From IMG/VR virus record IMGVR_UViG_3300021956_000063, positions 1 through 28,571 of that record: a stretch of 28,571 nt of DNA. One strand, written 5' to 3'. Below are positions 1-25,738 of the stretch, piece by piece. Position numbers and translations under genes: made by a program. How positions within the stretch are numbered: position 1 is the stretch's first letter; every line of letters starts with the position of its first letter. The notes beneath the pieces were generated by a model. The model saw only the letters and a list, made by a program, of their open reading frames with translations, was not told the DNA's origin and ran no database searches. The DNA comes from a virus.

Positions 1-126
1 AACTTTTGCTGCTTTCTTTTTATCTGTAACTCCCGTAGTTCTGTTAACGCGCTCCCCGAGGTAGACGCCTCTAATCGACCAGTTCGGGCTTTTGTCTTTT
101 CTCGGCGGGTAAAGTTTGAGTGACAT
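1..126 (-). CDS. int: Tyrosine recombinase (phage integrase), N-terminal part, cut by window edge
   Basis: Only the first 42 codons are inside the window. The start ATG is at 126 on the minus strand. The peptide opens MSLKLYPPRKDKSPNWSIRG, followed by a Gly-x-x-Val-x-Arg-Thr-Thr-Gly stretch. This K-L-Y-P-P-R-K...S-P-N-W pattern is what I know from the N-termini of phage tyrosine integrases of alphaproteobacterial prophages; the catalytic domain would lie to the left of position 1. The reading frame overlaps the upstream HTH gene in another frame, so the two are probably translated from one leftward transcript. It would integrate the phage into the host chromosome. The family call rests on the N-terminal pattern and on position at the end of the recombination operon. 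Confidence 0.7.
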   Translation of the reverse strand, partial: MSLKLYPPRKDKSPNWSIRGVYLGERVNRTTGVTDKKKAAKV

Positions 127-1194: not shown

Positions 1195-1434
1195 TTAAAA
1201 AGGGACATTATCATCCAAATGTGAGCTGACTTGTTTTGCCGGCGCAGCTTCGCCTTTACGTTTTACCTTGCCAGATAAAAACTCACCGTTTTTGCCTTGT
1301 CGAAGCTTGGCATCTAGGTAAAATTCATTGCCATCTTCGTCGATTAATGTGCCACGCCAATCAGCGTGCCAATCCTCGGTCTTGCGATCGTTTCTATTCA
1401 ATGTGAATGTGTTGCGTTTATCAAAGTCACTCAT
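1195..1434 (-). CDS. Small protein with SSB-like acidic C-terminal tip, 79 aa
   Basis: The 79 residues include a probable beta-rich core: D-W-R-G-T-L-I-D, then E-F-Y-L-D-A-K-L, then F-L-S-G-K-V-K-R-K. A short linker follows and the protein ends in D-D-N-V-P-F. That terminal hexapeptide closely resembles the D-D-D-I-P-F tip by which bacterial SSB proteins recruit partner enzymes. At 79 aa it is too short for a classical SSB, but it could be a reduced OB-like or annealing cofactor. It is coupled to the Erf gene by an ATGA overlap, which supports a role in ssDNA handling. Function is inferred from the tip and the context. Confidence 0.7.
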   Translation of the reverse strand: MSDFDKRNTFTLNRNDRKTEDWHADWRGTLIDEDGNEFYLDAKLRQGKNGEFLSGKVKRKGEAAPAKQVSSHLDDNVPF

Positions 1435-2057
1435 GCTGCATCCTTACCTTTGATTAAAGTTTGTTGATCAACGTATGCTTCTTTCATTGCTTCACGATCT
1501 GCTGGCTGCAGGCAGCTAAGCGTAATTGAATTTTCTACGGACCATTCACCAAGCTGCTTTGTCGAAAGGCATAGAGACAGCAAACCCATTAAGCGATCGC
1601 GTTCTTTAATCGACTTTTGAGTATCGAACATTTCTGCTTTTGCTGGTCGCTTTGGCGCAGATACTGCAGACACAGCTGCGTTTCCGTCATCATCTTCTTC
1701 GCCGGCAATACCGACCAGGCTAAACATGCTATAGCGACGGCTATAAGTAAGCGCTGATCCCATATCTTGCTGCTTAGCTGGGAAGGCACACACCGGATAC
1801 TCAGCCTCAATCCACTGGCCGGATTTATGCGTTAAACGCGTATCCAGCATCAGTATATTGCCCTCGACCCTAGTAGCTTGGACGACTGCAATATTGTGCT
1901 TTGATAAGCACTCACGCACGATGTTTAAGCCTGTATCGAGAGTGGCGTATTTGGATTTGAAATGCGGGTTGTTTCCATCCTTAGTTGGATTAGACAAAAC
2001 ACCCTGCGCTTTAGCGAGATCCAATGATATCTCGTTTGTTTGTTCTGACGTTTTCAT
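1431..2057 (-). CDS. erf: Erf-family single-strand annealing recombinase
   Basis: This 208-aa protein anneals complementary single strands during phage recombination, acting after the neighbouring exonuclease. The Erf pattern is clear. N-P-H-F-K-S-K-Y-A-T-L-D lies at residues 30-41. The strongly conserved Q-D-M-G-S-A-L-T-Y-S-R-R-Y-S block is at 97-110, followed by L-V-G-I-A-G-E-E-D-D-D-G-N at about 114-126. The remaining C-terminal part is variable and helical. It overlaps the YqaJ-like exonuclease upstream (ATGA) and the SSB-like gene downstream (ATGA), the usual exonuclease/annealase/SSB arrangement. Length fits the family. Confidence 0.92.
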   Translation of the reverse strand: MKTSEQTNEISLDLAKAQGVLSNPTKDGNNPHFKSKYATLDTGLNIVRECLSKHNIAVVQATRVEGNILMLDTRLTHKSGQWIEAEYPVCAFPAKQQDMGSALTYSRRYSMFSLVGIAGEEDDDGNAAVSAVSAPKRPAKAEMFDTQKSIKERDRLMGLLSLCLSTKQLGEWSVENSITLSCLQPADREAMKEAYVDQQTLIKGKDAA

Positions 2058-2836
2058 GATTTTTCCTTACGGATTGTTATTGCGCCGGTCTTAGACCTGG
2101 ATGCTTTAATGCCGTGGCCAAATGCTTCTTGGACATCTGGCTCAACAAGTTCTTTGATGCGTTTTGTTGCTGCATCGAATGCTTTTGCGGGGCCGTAATG
2201 CATGTGCCAATCGCCGGCAGCATCTGCCCAAGAATTATTTCCGGACATATCGACCTTGCGCACAGCTTCTATGGGCGCCGGAACATGAACAGCAATTGGC
2301 TCCTCACCAGATTGCACGCATTCCCAAAAATGACGTTCGGCGGCTATTAATTGATCCTGGTAAATTGGGTCAGCATCGACCTCAAATACCTTCCATTTCT
2401 GAGTGCCAAAAAATACGCTCAGAAACGCTTTCTGATGGCCGCAGACACGCATGTTGTGTTGTAGCTGTGGAAAGTAGCGCTCAAGTATAGCTTCCTCTGT
2501 TTGGAACGCTGATACATGCTTGGCTTCAAAGACAGCTATATTTTCTATTTCGCCGTCTAATGTGCAAAGCATAAAAGAAAACTCAGCGCTGATCTGTTGA
2601 TCGCCCTGGCGCGTTACAGTTTTTCCTGTTTCTTCCTCGAACCAGGTGACGTTGAGAGCCTCGGTGAAAGAACCCATACGAACCGGCAGAACGCGTGACA
2701 GATCTTCCGGCTCGATTTCACCGCGCTTTTCTTTCCAAAGGCGCAGGATTTTCTCTGCGTCACCAGACATGATGGTGTTAGCGTCTGATCCACCCAGACC
2801 TTGCTTGCGGAAAGCCTTTTGCTGTTCAGTTAGCAT
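2054..2836 (-). CDS. YqaJ/lambda-type viral recombinase exonuclease
   Basis: This is a 260-aa PD-(D/E)xK exonuclease that would resect dsDNA ends and make ssDNA for the Erf protein. Visible motifs are G-L-G-G-S-D-A at residues 13-19, E59, the catalytic D94 in T-L-D-G-E, E104-A-K106 and a following Q-L-Q-H helix. The first ATG of the frame is at 2851, but the ATG at 2836 is preceded at 7-nt spacing by GGGAGG, so I place the start there. This leaves only an 11-nt overlap with the upstream 72-aa gene. It is followed by erf with a 4-nt overlap. Confidence 0.88.
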   Translation of the reverse strand: MLTEQQKAFRKQGLGGSDANTIMSGDAEKILRLWKEKRGEIEPEDLSRVLPVRMGSFTEALNVTWFEEETGKTVTRQGDQQISAEFSFMLCTLDGEIENIAVFEAKHVSAFQTEEAILERYFPQLQHNMRVCGHQKAFLSVFFGTQKWKVFEVDADPIYQDQLIAAERHFWECVQSGEEPIAVHVPAPIEAVRKVDMSGNNSWADAAGDWHMHYGPAKAFDAATKRIKELVEPDVQEAFGHGIKASRSKTGAITIRKEKS

Positions 2837-3044
2837 CAGCTGGCCTCCCATATCCTGACATCACGTTGTTAAACGCTTCGACAGCCTCGAGAGCGCGAGC
2901 GTATGACCGCGCTGGGATGTGGATAGAAAGATCAGAGATGATCGTCTTGCGATCTCTAACTTCGATCCAGGTGGAGACATCTCCACGCTGAACCGAAAGA
3001 TGGATGTCGCCTTCTGCGTGAAATGCGATGGTGCCGCTTTTCAT
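2826..3044 (-). CDS. Small protein of unknown function, 72 aa
   Basis: This is a small mixed alpha/beta protein starting MKSGTIAFHAEGDIHLSVQR. Alternating hydrophobic residues in the first half suggest a beta hairpin, and a helix (S-Y-A-R-A-L-E-A-V-E-A-F-N-N-V-M) follows. It is not a family I recognise. Its ATG overlaps the stop of the upstream 55-aa gene (TAATG), and its 3' end contains the ribosome site of the exonuclease gene, so translation of the two is linked. Confidence 0.65.
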   Translation of the reverse strand: MKSGTIAFHAEGDIHLSVQRGDVSTWIEVRDRKTIISDLSIHIPARSYARALEAVEAFNNVMSGYGRPADAN

Positions 3045-3475: not shown

Positions 3476-3625
3476 ATGACTGATCAAGATTTGAGGTTTA
3501 TGGCATTGAATTTAGCTTCCCAATTCCCAGAAGATGTCAACGACGCCATTAGATTGCACGCAATCATTGGAGAGCTGATCACTCAATGGCTTTATGGAGC
3601 CAAACAAAACGAAATACAGAGCTAA
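3476..3625 (+). CDS. Small protein of unknown function, 49 aa, convergent with the repressor
   Basis: A 49-codon frame starts at 3476 (MTDQDLRFMALNLASQFPED) and overlaps the 3' end of the repressor gene by 4 nt in convergent orientation. It is predicted to be all helical, with amphipathic spacing through most of its length. An 11-codon frame (3439-3474) ends 1 nt before its ATG and could serve as a leader peptide. The ribosome site is weak. Position between left operators and repressor suggests a lysogeny-region accessory gene, but no function can be assigned. Confidence 0.45.
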   Translation: MTDQDLRFMALNLASQFPEDVNDAIRLHAIIGELITQWLYGAKQNEIQS

Positions 3626-3897
3626 TTTTGTTCTTCGGATGCAACTAACTGCTTTACAAGGCTTTGAGGTAAAGCGGCCATATCTCCTAGATAAATGTAA
3701 TCTAAGGACGCGCCTGTTAGTCGTCTTATTTCGCTAGCTTGCGGAACCGGAATAAGACCTCTTCCAGCTTCCCAAACATGATAACGCTTGTGGTCGATCT
3801 TCAAACATTTGCCCATTTCGACCTGGTTTTCGATACCCAAAACACCACGAAGAAGGGCTAAACGCCTGCCAACCGCCTTCAAGTAGGGGTCACTCAT
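3622..3897 (-). CDS. Short XRE/HTH repressor (CI-like)
   Basis: This 91-aa DNA-binding protein has an XRE-type helix-turn-helix at about residues 8-65 (R-R-L-A-L-L-R-G-V-L-G-I...M-G-K-C-L-K-I-D...Y-H-V-W-E-A-G-R-G). It is divergent from the Cro-like gene at 4049, with the TCGAAA palindromes between them, so it is the likely lysogeny repressor. It ends soon after the HTH domain and lacks the S24 peptidase domain used for RecA-stimulated self-cleavage, so induction would need another route (antirepressor, protein partner or dilution). The start is preceded by AGGCGG at about 9 nt. Confidence 0.8.
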   Translation of the reverse strand: MSDPYLKAVGRRLALLRGVLGIENQVEMGKCLKIDHKRYHVWEAGRGLIPVPQASEIRRLTGASLDYIYLGDMAALPQSLVKQLVASEEQN

Positions 3898-3920
3898 AAC
3901 ATTGCACCGCCTGTCAATGG

Positions 3921-3949
3921 TTAATAAATAGTTAAAAGCAAAATATCAA
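3921..3949 (-). promoter_or_regulatory. Predicted repressor promoter
   Basis: On the minus strand, TTGATA (3944-3949), a 17-nt spacer and TATTAA (3921-3926) lie 24 nt upstream of the repressor start. No TCGAAA palindrome overlaps it; the nearest is about 44 bp upstream, so direct autorepression from these elements is not obvious. Confidence 0.4.
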
Positions 3950-3992
3950 CAAAAAATTTTAGATCGACCGAAAACTTTTTCCTTAGTTAAGA

Positions 3993-4036
3993 TCGAAAAT
4001 AATTCGACACATATTGACGCATCGAAAAATTTTCGA
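3993..4036. promoter_or_regulatory. Right operator pair
   Basis: TCGAAAATAATTCGA at 3993-4007 has one mismatched arm position and TCGAAAAATTTTCGA at 4022-4036 has perfect 6-bp arms. Their starts are 29 bp apart, close to the 30-bp spacing of the left pair. The second fills the spacer of the rightward promoter; the first lies just upstream of its -35. Confidence 0.7.
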
Positions 4037-4042
4037 TAGCTT
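4014..4042 (+). promoter_or_regulatory. Predicted rightward early promoter, possibly giving a leaderless mRNA
   Basis: The -35 TTGACG (4014-4019) is followed by a 17-nt spacer that contains a TCGAAA palindrome, then a weak -10 TAGCTT (4037-4042). The expected transcription start, about 7 nt after the -10, coincides with the A of the ATG at 4049. This mirrors the leftward promoter, where an operator also fills the spacer. Confidence 0.5.
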
Positions 4043-4048
4043 CGGAAA

Positions 4049-4291
4049 ATGCTTACGTCACTAAAATCATCCGCTGAAGTCATTGATGCCCTAGGCGGGA
4101 CAAAACCATTAATTGAGCTTCTTCATGTTGGCAGCGCAGCTGTCAGCGTTTGGCGTGTTCGCAACCGTTTTCCGGCTCATACCTTCCCAAAAATTCAGCA
4201 AGAGCTGCTTGCTCGAGGCATGACTGCAGACGCTTCTCTTTGGTCGTTTGCTCGTAAAAAGTCAGAGCGTCGCTCGGAAGCGACACAATGA
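4049..4291 (+). CDS. Cro-like early DNA-binding protein
   Basis: This 80-aa protein has a Cro/YdaS-like HTH. A-E-V-I-D-A-L-G-G-T-K-P-L-I-E-L-L is the first helix pair, and A-A-V-S-V-W-R-V-R-N-R-F-P the recognition helix and turn. It starts immediately downstream of the right operators and is divergent from the repressor, the position of cro in lambdoid phages. It probably binds the same palindromes to switch off the repressor. No good Shine-Dalgarno sequence precedes the ATG, which fits a leaderless message. Its stop overlaps the next gene (ATGA). Confidence 0.75.
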   Translation: MLTSLKSSAEVIDALGGTKPLIELLHVGSAAVSVWRVRNRFPAHTFPKIQQELLARGMTADASLWSFARKKSERRSEATQ

Positions 4292-5135: not shown

Positions 5136-5575
5136 TGGCTTGGAATTTTAAACGATTTAAATGGACGCCGGCATCAATTGAAGCATTAGCAGCTGGCAAG
5201 CTCGAAGGGTTGAGCCACGCTAAAATTGCTGCACGAATTACTGTGCAATTTAATACACGCTGCACCGGATCAATGGTCCAGGCTTGTTGGTTAAAGCTTG
5301 TCGATAAGAATTATTTCGAAAAGCGTCCAGAGTTTGATGATCTTGTTTTAGCAACTCTCGAGATGCGACGGGATCAAAAGCCATTTAACGAGACGGCTGA
5401 GCAATGCCCGATCCGAGCCAGCATTTTGCATTTATTGGATCTTAAGCGCGCTGGTCATAGCCCACGTTTTACTGAGCTAAAGATCGACAGCGAATATTGG
5501 CCTAAAGCATATACGTCGCAAACTCCATATCATTCTTACAGCAGTTCTCCTGCAGCTTTATGCGTGGGGGAATAA
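5135..5575 (+). CDS. HTH-like early protein of unknown function, 146 aa
   Basis: The ATG at 5135 is chosen over a GTG at 5132 because GGGAGG lies 7 nt upstream of it. The first half (F-K-W-T-P-A-S-I-E-A-L-A-A-G-K-L-E-G-L-S-H-A-K-I-A-A-R-I) reads like a homeodomain-type HTH, with a W-T start reminiscent of GcrA or SANT-like domains. The C-terminal third is Ser/Tyr/Pro-rich. It directly precedes the GcrA-type gene and may be a divergent relative or partner; that is inference from position and the W-T-x(n)-L-A-x-G-L-S pattern. Confidence 0.65.
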   Translation: MAWNFKRFKWTPASIEALAAGKLEGLSHAKIAARITVQFNTRCTGSMVQACWLKLVDKNYFEKRPEFDDLVLATLEMRRDQKPFNETAEQCPIRASILHLLDLKRAGHSPRFTELKIDSEYWPKAYTSQTPYHSYSSSPAALCVGE

Positions 5576-5577
5576 GG

Positions 5578-6045
5578 ATGCATTACGTTAAACCTTGGAC
5601 GCAAGAAGATGATAAGGTATTGCGTGAGATCAGTGGATCTGGTCAGCCGGCTAGGATTGCTGCCGATATTTTGGGTCGATCCAGAAACGCAATTCTAGGT
5701 CGAGCTCATAGATTAAACATCAGCTTTGGCCGTGAGTTTTCATACAAGCAACCGGCTAATGATCACAAGATTGACAAGCCAATCAAGGTAAAAAAACCAC
5801 GCAATCGACCACCGGAAGAGACGTTAATTTATCCGCTGTTTGAGATGCCAGAGGCTGCGATAACGCCATATGGACAGCCTCGAGAGTTATTAGATCTCGA
5901 GCCTCACCACTGCCGCTGGGCATGTTTTGAGATCGAGGGAACACATCAGTTCTGTTGCGCTGACCGTATGCCTGGCAAGCCATACTGCGTCGAGCATCAG
6001 ATAATAGCTTACAGCAAAAGACGGCTCCGCGAGGTCACGCAATGA
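5578..6045 (+). CDS. GcrA-family transcription regulator
   Basis: GcrA is an alphaproteobacterial sigma70 cofactor that activates promoters carrying methylated GANTC sites. This 155-aa protein has the GcrA layout: an N-terminal W-T-Q-E-D-D-K-V-L-R-E-I HTH with I-A-A-D-I-L-G-R-S-R-N-A-I-L-G-R-A-H-R-L (residues 27-46), a Lys/Pro linker, and a C-terminal H-H-C-R-W...F-C-C-A-D...P-Y-C-V-E-H...A-Y zinc-like module that binds sigma. The start at 5578 is preferred to the in-frame ATG at 5560 because GGGGGA precedes it. The phage copy could redirect host transcription to late promoters. Confidence 0.85.
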   Translation: MHYVKPWTQEDDKVLREISGSGQPARIAADILGRSRNAILGRAHRLNISFGREFSYKQPANDHKIDKPIKVKKPRNRPPEETLIYPLFEMPEAAITPYGQPRELLDLEPHHCRWACFEIEGTHQFCCADRMPGKPYCVEHQIIAYSKRRLREVTQ

Positions 6046-16127: not shown

Positions 16128-18362
16128 ATGGCTACGGTAACACGTTATGACTACTCTTCGTCTATTCGCGAAGATTTAGAGGATTGACAATATATAGGCG
16201 AATTGTCTTATAATAGTCCTCGTGTTGTTTCGGACTATGGCAAATCGCAATGCTAGACGAATGGATGAGTATTTCCCGAGATAAACTCTGGAAATTATAT
16301 GCAAAATTACCAGCTACCGCGATTGCGGCTCAATATGAAGTTACTCCTGGCGCGGTATATCACCGACTAAGAGCTTTCGGCATAAAAGCTGGTGATGTTG
16401 GCAAGCATGCTGCTGGCCCTAAAAAAAGCTTTAACCCTCCAAAGGTTGAGTTAGAGCGCTTGTATAAAACAATGTCTATGGCAAAAATTGCCGCTCATTA
16501 TGGAGTTGGTGAGACTGTCATATTCATGCGTTTAAAACAGCATGGCATTGGCGGGATAAGCCGGTCTGACAGGCTGAAAGAATACAAGAGAACACCAGAG
16601 CACCAAGCAAATATAACTGCTGCGTTGCCTCACCGACCTGGGCCTAAAAACCCAAATTGGAAAGGCGGCGTATCTTCCGAAAATCTACGTGCTAGGTCTA
16701 GGAAAGAATACAGAATTTGGAAATTAGCTGTGCTTGAGAAACACAATTTTAAATGTTCCAAATGCGGTATTGAGCAAGGATATGTTTGCGAATGTTGTGG
16801 TGGCAGGGTTTTACTGCACGCTCATCACATCAAGTCTTTTTCAAATAATCCAAAAAAAAGATACGATGTAAAAAACGGCATAGCGTTGTGTAACAGGTGT
16901 CATTTTAAGGAACATCACTAGAAAACGGGGTGAATTGCTGGAAAAGCTGACCGGGTAAGCCGAAGCCAATCAGCAGCCAAGTCGCATATGTAACTCGCAA
17001 GAGCTAGGGATGCGGAAGGTTCAACGACTAGACAGTGACGAAAGAATAATCTGTCCACGAGCGCCCCGCCCGATAAAAGGGATGATATAGTCTGAGCTAC
17101 ATGGAAACATGTAGAAGTTAGCTATAAACAAGCTAACGATAACAAAACTGATTATCTACAATATCAGCCCAACTAAAACGGCTTTTATGAACAATGTTGG
17201 CCGCACATCTGCGGACAATACCTACCACGAATGGCAGACCGATATTCTTGCCGATGCTAACGGCTCGAATGCGGCTATCGAAGGCGCAGACGCTACTGAT
17301 ACTACGTTTGCTGCTCCTTCACGTTGCGGCAACTACACGCAGATTTCTACGAAGACGTTAAACGTCTCTGGAACGTCTGGCGCTGTAGATGCGGCTGGCA
17401 TGAAAACCATTGAGGCTTATCTCATTGCTAAACACGGCAAAGAGCTTAAGCGCGACATGGAAACCATCCTCCTGTCAAATCAGGCGGCGGTTGCTGGCGA
17501 TGCTTCAACGGCTCGTAAACTCGCTGGTTTCCCAACGTGGATTAAAACGACTGCTCAGACGCCTGCCGGTAACGGCATCGTTGTAGGCACCGTAACCGGC
17601 CCTGCGTATTCTGGTGGCGCTTCTACGGTAAGTGGAGCACCAACGACTGCGTGGACGCTTACGAGCGGTTCAGCTGCTTTTACGGAAACAAACCTAAAAG
17701 ACGCTATCCGCAATATGTATCAAAAGGGCGGTGAGCCTAAGATGATGCTTGTTTCGCCGGTCAATAAGACCCGCGTTTCTGGCTTCGCTGGCTTGTCTCA
17801 GACGCGCGTTAATACGGATGTTAAAAACGGTCAGGCTACCATTGTTGGCTCGGCTGATGTCTACCTTAATTTTGGGGTCGCTGCCTAGTAATAGGTAGTT
17901 GTAATCGGGTTAATTCGGTGAACCTCTCAAGTGTCAACCGAAGCATTTGAGACAATACCGAGCCAAGCCGTCGCAAGACGGAAGGTGTAACGACTAGAGG
18001 CGGGAGCCTCGTAGAGCCAAGTGGCTTGAAATGCCCGACCCCTGCAAACGCAGGGTGAAGAGATAGTCTGGTCTCTATGGTGACATAGAGCGTCGTAAGA
18101 CGGGTTAAGAGTAACGACCTTAGCCAAACATCAATGCAGTGATTTCGGCGCGTTAGACATTGTTCCTTCTCTATTCTGTAACGGTAACTTTGCATACTTT
18201 GTTGACCCAGATTATGCGAAGGTTGCGTATCTGCGTCCGTTCCAGCGCACTGAGTTGGCACGCACAGGCGACAGCAAGCGTTCGCAGCTTCTCTGCGAAT
18301 ACACGCTGGTAATCAACTCGCCTTACGCGCATGCGGTCGTAGCGAATATTACGAACAGCTAA
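16128..18362 (+). CDS. Major capsid protein (DUF5309/SU10 type), split into three exons by two group I introns
   Basis: Coding exons are 16128-16184, 17151-17866 and 18137-18362 (57 + 716 + 226 = 999 nt), giving a continuous 332-aa protein after splicing. Exon 1 encodes MATVTRYDYSSSIREDLED. Exon 2 continues in frame with I-I-Y-N-I-S-P-T-K-T-A-F-M-N and later H-E-W-Q-T-D. Exon 3 restores V-Y-L-S-D-F-G-A-L-D-I-V-P-S across the second junction (codon CT|C). These three blocks are the conserved landmarks of the DUF5309 capsid family as I know it. Without splicing, exon 1 meets TGA at once and exon 2 reads only seven intron codons before TAG. The ATG at 17187 is an internal Met codon, not the gene start. 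The gene ends in a strong terminator. Confidence 0.9.
16185..17150 (+). ncRNA. Group I intron 1 in the capsid gene, 966 nt, with an HNH gene
   Basis: The 5' exon ends GAGGAT, which pairs with GTCCTC at 16216-16221; the last exon U pairs with G16216, the U.G pair that marks group I 5' splice sites. Upstream bases ATAAT (16210-16214) can pair with the first bases of the 3' exon (ATTAT), a P10. The intron ends in G at 17150. Downstream of the HNH gene are P4-like TTGCTG/CAGCAG, the GACTA/TAGTC pairing of P7 within TTCAACGACTA and ATATAGTCTGA, a GAAA-capped P9 (CTACATG/CATGTAG) and a 7-bp hairpin before the 3' end. The HNH gene is inserted between P1 and the core. Confidence 0.88.
16250..16921 (+). 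CDS. Intron-encoded HNH homing endonuclease
   Basis: This 223-aa protein probably cuts intronless alleles at the insertion site so that the intron is copied in. It has two tandem homeodomain-like HTH units (about residues 11-46 and 66-102, each with A-A-x-Y-x-V and a basic recognition helix). These are followed by a NUMOD3-like P-N-W-K-G-G (135-140) and a C-terminal HNH: C169-x2-C172, H192-H193-I-K, N209 and C214-x2-C217-H218. An additional C-E-C-C (180-183) lies between the first knuckle and the catalytic His. The ribosome site is poor and the start lies close to the P1 helix, so translation may be kept low. Confidence 0.88.
   Translation: MLDEWMSISRDKLWKLYAKLPATAIAAQYEVTPGAVYHRLRAFGIKAGDVGKHAAGPKKSFNPPKVELERLYKTMSMAKIAAHYGVGETVIFMRLKQHGIGGISRSDRLKEYKRTPEHQANITAALPHRPGPKNPNWKGGVSSENLRARSRKEYRIWKLAVLEKHNFKCSKCGIEQGYVCECCGGRVLLHAHHIKSFSNNPKKRYDVKNGIALCNRCHFKEHH
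17867..18136 (+). ncRNA. Group I intron 2 in the capsid gene, 270 nt, ORF-less, td-like
   Basis: The 5' exon ends CTACCT and the intron starts TAATT. U17866 can pair with G17875 and the preceding ACC with GGT (17876-17878), a 4-bp P1 with an 8-nt loop. The intron ends AACATCAATG, then exon CAGTGATTTC. The core has AACCTCTCAAG, the P7 strands TAACGACTA and GATAGTCTGG, a GCAA-capped stem (CCGTC/GACGG), CCCTGC/GCAGGG, and a GTGA-capped P9 (CTCTATG/CATAGAG). From memory, the T4 td intron shares the TAATT start, AACCTCTC, TAACGACTA and the ACGACCTTA...AACATAATG end. It is probably subgroup IA2 and unlike intron 1. Confidence 0.88.
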
Positions 18363-21795: not shown

Positions 21796-21971
21796 TGAAT
21801 TTATTTCAAAAGATAATTATAATTTATCCTAATCTTACCATAGAAGATTTTAGCTCACGCGGAACAATCGTTCTCCAAAACGACAGCGACGGACGCGGCG
21901 ATTACATAGCCAAGTGGGAACATCCAACATTTGAAAAGCCTACTGACGCACAGCTTGAGGCTATACAATGA
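21795..21971 (+). CDS. Small XkdW-like tail-module protein, 58 aa
   Basis: This short gene exactly fills the gap: its ATG overlaps the previous stop (TAATG) and its TGA overlaps the next start (ATGA). The peptide starts M-N-L-F-Q-K-I-I-I-I-Y-P-N-L-T, then F-S-S-R-G-T-I-V-L-Q-N-D-S-D-G-R-G-D-Y-I-A-K-W, and ends with P-T-D-A-Q-L-E-A. This resembles XkdW-type proteins found between fibre genes, perhaps assembly factors for the adhesin. It has a more AT-rich start than its neighbours. Confidence 0.65.
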   Translation: MNLFQKIIIIYPNLTIEDFSSRGTIVLQNDSDGRGDYIAKWEHPTFEKPTDAQLEAIQ

Positions 21972-22900
21972 CTGTAACAATTTCTGGCACGACAGGCATC
22001 TCTGGCGTAGATGGTTCTAACACGACGCCAGCCGTTCGCGGTGGCACATCATCAAGCAATGGCGTGTTCTACGGCACGAACACTGTGTCTATTGCTACTA
22101 ATGGAACGACTGCGGTAACGGTTGATAGTAGTCAGAATGTTGGGATTGGCGATAGTTCATTAGGCGCTTACGCGCGACTTTCTATTGAAAAGTCGGGCGG
22201 CGACGCTGCTATAAGATTGAAAAAAACAGGCGGCACTGCACTTGGATATTTAGCGGCAGACGGAACTAACTTTTGGGTTGGTTCAGATCAAGGATCAACA
22301 GGCAAAAAGTTTTTTGTAAACCTTTCTGCTCCTGATAGTTCAGCAACAATAGACAGCAGCGGAAACCTGCTGGTTGGGACGACGAGTTCTTCAGATAGTT
22401 CAGGCGTAGGCATAAAGTCAATTTACAGCGCAACACAACCCGGAATAACTGTAACTGGCTCTGGCTCTACTGGCAGCGGAACCGCTGGATATAATTTATA
22501 TTCTACAGGTGCGGGGGCATACAGATTTTATGTGACTTATGCTGGCGTTATTTCTGCCACAACGACAACTATTAGCGGCATTTCAGATCAGAGGCTAAAA
22601 GAGAATATTCGAGATTTAGATATTGGCCTTGACGCCATTCTTTCTTTAAAACCTCGTAAGTTTGATTGGAAAGCTGGCAAAGGAAAAGATATTAAAAACG
22701 ATAGAGGATTTATTGCTCAAGAGTTTGAGCAAATATTCCCAGATTTAATTGACGAATGGAAAGATGAGCCGCCAGAAGGCGAGGAGCCATATAAGTCAGT
22801 TCGTCAGGATTTGATACCCGTCCTCGTCAAAGCCATCCAAGAACTCTCTGCAAAGAACGACGCACTAGAAGCGCGCATAGCCGCTTTGGAGGCTAACTGA
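21968..22900 (+). CDS. Tail fibre/spike with C-terminal S74 autocleaving chaperone, 310 aa
   Basis: Residues 1-200 form a Thr/Ser/Gly fibre with N-G-T-T-A-V-T-V-D-S-S-Q-N-V-G-I-G type repeats. Residues 200-310 are an intramolecular chaperone of the endosialidase type (peptidase S74). S206-D-Q-R-L-K211 gives the Ser/Lys dyad at the expected spacing of five, G-F-I-A-Q-E and F-P-D-L follow, and a C-terminal coiled coil (K-N-D-A-L-E-A-R-I-A-A-L-E) holds the trimer. The chaperone would cut itself off after folding. It is the first of two S74 genes in the cassette. Confidence 0.87.
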   Translation: MTVTISGTTGISGVDGSNTTPAVRGGTSSSNGVFYGTNTVSIATNGTTAVTVDSSQNVGIGDSSLGAYARLSIEKSGGDAAIRLKKTGGTALGYLAADGTNFWVGSDQGSTGKKFFVNLSAPDSSATIDSSGNLLVGTTSSSDSSGVGIKSIYSATQPGITVTGSGSTGSGTAGYNLYSTGAGAYRFYVTYAGVISATTTTISGISDQRLKENIRDLDIGLDAILSLKPRKFDWKAGKGKDIKNDRGFIAQEFEQIFPDLIDEWKDEPPEGEEPYKSVRQDLIPVLVKAIQELSAKNDALEARIAALEAN

Positions 22901-24805: not shown

Positions 24806-25738
24806 ATGGCCAATACATACACCCCGACATATAACCTCATTCAGCCAGAGGTTGGCGCTGATACAAATGCCTGGGGGACGCATCTCAATACTGACCTTAC
24901 AACCATCGACACGCATATGTTGTCTCGCGCTTTGACAACATCACAAACTGCTGCTGGCCCTATGGTATTTGGTCAGACGCTAAGAGTGAACGGCGCTGTT
25001 ACATTTGATAGCACTGCGCTTGTAACAGGTAACACAACTTTATCTGGCACATTAACGACATCTGGCGCGGCGTCATTTAGCTCTACGATGGCTATAACCG
25101 GCGCTACAACAATTACCGGCGCAGCTACATTAAATAGCACTCTTGCTGTGACGGGCGCGGCAACATTTTCTAGCACAGGCGCATTTACTGGAGTTGTGAC
25201 TGTAGCAACACCGACTGCATCTGGACACGCTACAACTAAATCATATGTTGATACTGCTGATGCTTTAAAATTAAATTTAACTGGCGGCACACTTACCGGC
25301 AATCTGTCTATAGTAAATAGCACCACTGAGATGACGCTAACCCTTGGCTCATCAGCTGGTTATTATTTCGGTAATGCTACAACTGCTGGCTGGAAAAACT
25401 CTGGCGGCACTGCTCGGGTGTCTTGGAATATTTCATCGGGTGATTTTACTGCAGCCGGTAACGTAACAGCTTATTCAGATGCTAAACTAAAGAAAGATGT
25501 TGAGCCAATAGATGGCGCTCTAGGCTTAGTCAATTTGCTTAGAGGCGTTAGATACACACGTATTGATACTGAGGAAAAAGGTATTGGCGTTATTGCTCAA
25601 GAATTGCAAAAAGTATTTCCAGAGCTTGTTCACGAAAACGACGGAACCTTATCTGTCGCATATGCTAATTTAACCGGCGTATTAATTGAGGCGGTTAAAG
25701 AACTAACACAGCGCGTTCGGAAGCTGGAGAACCGTTAA
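24806..25738 (+). CDS. Tail fibre with C-terminal S74 autocleaving chaperone, 310 aa (second copy)
   Basis: Residues 1-45 (Y-T-P-T-Y-N-L-I-Q-P-E-V-G-A-D-T-N-A-W-G) form the virion-anchoring part common in phage fibres. Residues 50-215 are beta-repeat shaft with A-T-F-S-S-T, G-A-A-T-L-N-S-T and similar units. The end carries an S74 chaperone with S224-D-A-K-L-K229 (spacing five), G-V-I-A-Q-E-L, F-P-E-L and a terminal coil (V-K-E-L-T-Q-R-V-R-K-L-E). Unlike the earlier S74 gene, it has its own anchoring domain, so it could be an independent fibre. Confidence 0.87.
   Translation: MANTYTPTYNLIQPEVGADTNAWGTHLNTDLTTIDTHMLSRALTTSQTAAGPMVFGQTLRVNGAVTFDSTALVTGNTTLSGTLTTSGAASFSSTMAITGATTITGAATLNSTLAVTGAATFSSTGAFTGVVTVATPTASGHATTKSYVDTADALKLNLTGGTLTGNLSIVNSTTEMTLTLGSSAGYYFGNATTAGWKNSGGTARVSWNISSGDFTAAGNVTAYSDAKLKKDVEPIDGALGLVNLLRGVRYTRIDTEEKGIGVIAQELQKVFPELVHENDGTLSVAYANLTGVLIEAVKELTQRVRKLENR

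Follow-up and report, generated by a model that had tools for sequence, protein, structure and literature searches.

The window, a linear IMG/VR virus record of 28,571 bases analysed over its whole length, is one contig of an uncultured phage, and sequence comparison identifies its gene at 16128-18362 as a major capsid protein (MCP) gene of the SU10 type interrupted by two group I introns, as a first-pass annotation had proposed (Table 1). Deletion of the two stretches that this annotation took for introns, 16185-17150 and 17867-18136, leaves 57 + 716 + 226 = 999 nt in a single frame that encodes 332 residues and a stop codon. The alignment that it put forward as a check, of the spliced protein to PF17236 (SU10_MCP, DUF5309), gave a match of 291.6 bits against a cut-off of 24.1 over profile positions 7-292 of 292, compared with just 170 bits for the unspliced exon 2 ORF alone, and the spliced MCP also matches PHROG 1328, major head protein. 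The surrounding genes follow the SU10-type head order of terminase, SU10 portal, scaffold, MCP and SU10 adaptor. A search of GenBank phages for near-identity to the window gave no match, and the nearest isolate is phiM5 of Sinorhizobium. A GcrA-like cell-cycle regulator is encoded at 5560-6045, and this homologue, together with phiM5 and the binning of a related contig (L233) in a Methylocystaceae genome, points to an alphaproteobacterial host. Two ORFs further along, at 21968-22900 and 24806-25738, have similar tail-fibre chaperone-like ends, with an LKE/LKK motif recognised by eye.

Table 1. Features of the interrupted capsid gene, and insertion sites in SU10-type capsid genes (residues in window numbering; a slash marks the insertion point)
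Feature	Position	Strand	Evidence or sequence at the site
MCP exon 1, codons 1-19, 3' end GAGGAU	16128..16184	+	Spliced product against intronless L003, gap-free
Group I intron 1, site A, 966 nt, last base G	16185..17150	+	Rfam RF00028, 69.8 bits; recurrence in L084/L085
Intron 1 internal guide GUCCUC, partner exon GAGGAU, splice-site U.G	16216..16221	+	Complementarity, 6 bp
Intron 1-encoded putative HNH endonuclease ORF, 223 aa	16250..16921	+	PF01844, PHROG 8446
Intron 1 conserved catalytic core, 3' of ORF	16922..17114	+	Rfam match; intron 1 family alignment
MCP exon 2, 3' end UACCU	17151..17866	+	Alignment to L003; junction mapping
Group I intron 2, site E, 270 nt, no ORF, last base G	17867..18136	+	RF00028, 73.2 bits; family covariation
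Intron 2 internal guide GGGU, partner exon ACCU, splice-site wobble U17866.G17875	17875..17878	+	100% paired; C-G/G-C covariation over the exon-intron border
Intron 2 P7 5' strand GACUA	17992..17996	+	Invariant helix
Intron 2 P7 3' strand UAGUC	18064..18068	+	Invariant helix
MCP exon 3 including stop codon	18137..18362	+	Frame; spliced product against L003
Site A	After residue 19		GAGGAU/AUC
Site B	Residues ~26-27		ISP/T or PT/E; two positions, one codon apart
Site C	Residue 46/47		GAGU/GG
Sites D1 and D2	Residues ~108-110		UUACCU/CAUCGCC (D1) and GCNU/AC (D2), 4 nt apart
Single site in L206	HMM position 176
Site E	Residue 258		UACCU or UACGU/CAGUGA

The two introns are the only Rfam matches in the window, and in the model search that the first-pass annotation had recommended both exceed the RF00028 gathering score of 50 (E 5.2e-16 for intron 1 and 5e-17 for intron 2). 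The fold of intron 2 was examined in an alignment of 14 relatives from several insertion sites, each with 8 nt of exon on either side, in which 50 of the 73 pairs from P1 to P9.2, with the P7 pseudoknot, have changes on both sides. Pairing held in 96.4% of cells, compared with 79.0% after shuffling and 34-45% when slid, and no shuffle equalled it, although the structure was derived from the very alignment tested, which biases the figure in its favour; the Rfam match is independent of it. Covariation in P1 extends over the exon border, UACCU occurring with GGGGU and UACGU with GGCGU, while the U.G pair is invariant in the 14 sequences. In the intron 1 family (11 sequences), 21 of 43 pairs are compensated and the core resembles that of the intron 2 family; the Rfam alignment misplaces the 5' part of intron 1 because of its ORF, and P1 and P2 were therefore taken from complementarity and from ORF-less relatives. 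Extra hairpins between P7 and P3', of which P7.1 and P7.2 are both conserved in the intron 2 family and one is clear in intron 1, hint at subgroup IA for both introns. They are separate lineages of similar, IA-like appearance, and the earlier description of two introns of different type is not supported.

The junctions are exact at the protein level, since the 332-residue product of L003 aligns through both of them without a gap, and at the base level the cuts after U16184 and U17866 are fixed by P1, with its U.G pair, and by the final G of each intron. G17150 and G18136 are the terminal intron bases, and the mapped junctions of relatives likewise end in G, a base that the junction search required. 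The earlier observation that both insertions follow a U, end in G and carry core pairings is thus borne out by the P1 wobble, the terminal bases and the compensated helices. An in-frame UGA opens intron 1 immediately 3' of exon 1, and all site A introns with a readable 5' end start with UGA, UAA or UAG; in intron 2 an in-frame UAG comes after eight codons, counting from the split one. Because of these stops both splicing events would be needed for full-length capsid protein, and from unspliced RNA nothing longer than a truncated product, in one case of 19 residues, could be translated. Exon skipping was considered as a source of a usable product and rejected, exons 1 and 3 being out of frame (57 + 226 = 283 nt). 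The stops near the intron starts thus support the proposal that head production depends on two splicing events, the splicing itself being something that we infer.

The ORF of intron 1 matches PF01844 with 25.5 bits (cut-off 21.4) and PHROG 8446 with an E of 1.6e-20, and its HNH domain thus sits within an intron that is present in some phages and absent from others. ORF-less site A versions of 232-238 nt occur in L096, L100, L105, L106 and L107. Outside the introns, a free-standing HNH endonuclease gene (PF01844, 36 bits) lies on the minus strand of the window at 293-658. Near site E MCP genes, none of 10 neighbouring proteins examined with Pfam was a free-standing endonuclease that might mobilise the intron in trans.

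Relatives of the window phage carry the same introns or lack them at the same points. The MCP gene of L003 (IMGVR_UViG_3300010354_002287) is uninterrupted and its 332-residue product is 95% identical to the spliced product; a scan of this record with RF00028 gave no match, and L003 and L237 both represent empty target alleles for site A. L084, from a different sample, has both introns at the same positions as the window, and L085 has intron 1 on a contig that stops inside exon 2; these two contigs are 96-97% identical to the window across kilobases, and the L084 MCP differs from that of the window at 20 of 999 nt, with 99.7% amino acid identity. The intron 1 motif was found in 22 IMG/VR stretches, most of which contain an SU10-type MCP gene interrupted at the same codon, and site A introns recur in MCPs as low as 43% identical to that of the window. 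In L090, L091 and L095 the intron 1 core was placed in another or an undetermined gene. At least 119 IMG/VR stretches contain the intron 2 motif, with SU10-type MCP exons in over half of the matches listed. Bacterial genomes searched with the intron 1 core pattern gave none. An intron-level search of GenBank phages gave no more than partial matches to introns or intergenic stretches, none of them in an SU10 MCP gene among the matches listed; one of these separates the two parts of the thymidylate synthase of Alteromonas AD45, and another those of the primase/helicase of Erwinia VL73. In L110, an Anp1-like glycosyltransferase domain is encoded at 3495-4154, immediately 3' of the capsid gene.

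The window gene is not an isolated case, as SU10-type MCP genes of many phages contain insertions at many sites. Junctions were mapped in IMG/VR stretches with an HMM built from 24 MCPs. The 96 interruptions that this gave, of which 43 remain when redundancy is removed at 95%, are spread over seven or more sites; the h47 junctions (L127, L160) and the B junctions of L113, L117, L156, L164 and L171 are poorly determined. A further site is possible at HMM 234, without Rfam confirmation. L162 and L164 were rejected as confirmed cases, giving no RF00028 match at the gathering threshold though their exons are split at several points; their MCP inserts of ~740-940 nt at HMM 234 and B are possibly ORF-bearing or other introns. 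Three Rfam-confirmed introns per MCP gene are found in L158, L197 and L206, with complete spliced frames of ~320 residues. When positions were compared with locus coordinates, the MCP gene accounted for every one of the 16 group I matches of the window and of 11 further records (two of these matches, from site C introns that contain a long ORF, score below the family cut-off), but the census searches began from MCP introns and do not gauge the frequency of such introns in other genes. The five site groups lie in protein segments that are more conserved than random positions (mean 3.39 against 2.82 bits, p 0.002). Site C introns carry a LAGLIDADG ORF in L247, L244 and L252 (the L244 protein matches PF14528) and are represented by an ORF-less version in L241. 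Site E introns mapped at HMM 237-239 measure 259-276 nt, none of them long enough for an endonuclease.

For a sample drawn without regard to introns, exon 3 alone was used as query, and the close clade of the window was defined by exon 3 at least 92% identical. Introns are present in 8 of its 15 assessable genes (A in three, C in two, and A+C, A+D1 and A+E in one each) and absent from 7, whereas the same exon 3 test on the clade of L033 found them in 0 of ~75 assessable genes, and intron load is therefore clade-specific. Among phages with 95-99% identical MCPs the combinations comprise none, A, C, A+C, A+D1, A+E and D1+E, the last of these in L233, in which site A is empty.

The exons beside the introns are locally divergent. 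Between the window and the intronless L237, whose spliced exons are 93% identical with 4 amino acid changes in all, 15.6% of positions within 60 nt of A or E differ, compared with 3.8% elsewhere (Fisher p 1e-8), in a count that left out positions beyond 920. In these comparisons the flank size and the pairs were chosen by the analyst. Most of the signal is due to site E (20.8%, p 3e-8); taken by itself, site A is not significant in this pair (10.3% against 6.4%, p 0.12) but is so in the comparison with the A-empty L233 (12.8% against 3.7%, p 2e-4). In L241, which has only a site C intron, divergence peaks at C (15% against 4%, p 2e-5). Between L105 and L106 a divergent tract of ~100-190 nt lies just upstream of D1, not symmetrically around it, and causes no amino acid change. 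Ordinary phage recombination unrelated to introns can also produce local divergence, and in the window clade MCP nt 930-996 (spliced numbering) diverge sharply at the 3' end of the gene with no adjoining intron. The divergent and mostly synonymous tracts beside introns look like co-conversion tracts left by homing.

The introns themselves are more alike than the genes that hold them. Between the window and L084 they differ at 3 of 966 and 2 of 270 positions, compared with 20 of 999 in the exons. The D1 introns (L105:1285-1552 and L233:5413-5678) are 75-80% identical to E introns over their full length and belong to the intron 2 lineage; this full-length identity and the shared UACCU/CA argue for a move between E and D1 within one gene, for which reverse splicing is possibly the route.

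Taken together, these data are very probably explained by two group I introns that splice from the capsid mRNA, the first of which is probably mobile by means of its HNH endonuclease. In the late mRNA each intron would fold as a P3-P9 ribozyme and pair its guide with the last bases of the exon before it (GUCCUC with GAGGAU in intron 1, GGGU with ACCU in intron 2), guanosine would attack directly 3' of the U in the U.G pair, and ligation would link that exon to the one that follows the final G of the intron; translation of unspliced RNA would be halted by the stops just inside each intron. Intron 1 probably spreads when its predicted endonuclease cuts the empty capsid genes of co-infecting relatives, whereupon recombination would copy the intron into them and co-convert exon sequence beside it. 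Intron 2 encodes no endonuclease, yet a footprint of this kind is seen beside it too. The ERF and YqaJ recombination proteins encoded by adjacent genes on the minus strand of the window (1431-2851) could serve such homing.

The introns might instead be real and splicing but vertically inherited and no longer mobile, as the recurrence of sites A and E in deeply divergent MCPs could also result from old inheritance with losses. This is improbable, since phages with nearly identical MCPs differ in their intron combinations, the exons show footprints beside the introns, and intron 2 is identical (0 of 270 differences) between the window and L233, whose exons are 94.9% identical. It is still harder to accept that the capsid gene is decayed or misassembled and its insertions dead relics: the gene is known here only as sequence, on a single contig, but both introns recur in L084 and intron 1 in L085, the spliced frame is free of gaps, nearly all exon differences from phage to phage are synonymous and the ribozyme helices are maintained through compensatory change. 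Equally implausible is that polypeptides made from unspliced mRNA are functional capsid proteins, for which an internal ATG in exon 2, opening a 233-residue ORF from 17187, offers a candidate, as that product lacks both a conserved motif at the N terminus and the last 74 residues of the MCP, intact relatives are single chains of ~300-330 residues, and the MCP gene of phiM5 is single and intact, with its product detected in particles according to its record.

Capsid introns as a kind are already known, and the window is a further member. Mycobacteriophage LittleE has a group I-like intron in its major capsid gene, proven to splice by RT-PCR and N-terminal sequencing (PMC3706429), which likewise contains an endonuclease ORF and has intronless relatives; there, however, a single intron with an ORF on the opposite strand interrupts an HK97-related gene, whereas the window has two introns in an SU10-type gene and a sense-strand HNH ORF. 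The same paper cites a capsid intron in Tuc2009. In the Delta and Zeta groups of crAss-like phages MCP genes also contain several group I insertions, one MCP being in five fragments (PMC7886860), but these genomes are large and have introns in many genes, unlike the 35-41 kb contigs of the window relatives, in which all RF00028 matches found are in the MCP. Phage Twort and the Bastillevirinae have single genes interrupted by two or three group I introns (PMC11878797 and references there), these being DNA polymerase, terminase or other genes and not capsid genes. The intron HNH endonuclease of PhiPA3 gp210 acts against a co-infecting relative (PMC11620839) and offers a model for the persistence of such introns, its activity being proven and that of the window HNH predicted. 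These capsid precedents qualify the first-pass view that two introns in one capsid gene are unusual. A literature search that covered mainly papers outside subscription turned up no account of DUF5309/SU10-type capsid genes with introns, and the recurrent, multi-site and polymorphic invasion of this MCP family appears to be undescribed. New are SU10-head phages as carriers, the number of sites, the presence of three introns per capsid gene in small genomes, and a polymorphism that is combinatorial and accompanied by footprints.

Few phage genes are usually expressed as highly as the capsid gene or are as hard to dispense with, and two or three serial ribozymes within it therefore probe the efficiency that group I splicing has to reach. 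Because the close clade has near-matched genes that hold none, one or two introns in different combinations, it is a natural experiment on the cost of introns, on homing and on co-conversion. Annotators should expect the MCP genes of such phages to appear in pieces or to escape detection, with distortion of proteomics and of MCP-based taxonomy as the result. A broader and still doubtful proposal makes the SU10-type capsid gene a genuine hot spot for introns in small phages, in which lineages with an HNH endonuclease, a LAGLIDADG endonuclease or none insert again and again at seven or more conserved sites, one of these lineages occupying both E and D1, possibly through intragenic reverse splicing. 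Competition between rival phages may explain the accumulation of introns in this gene rather than elsewhere in these genomes and, if this were true, an intron endonuclease that cuts the capsid gene of a rival would deny that rival its virions.
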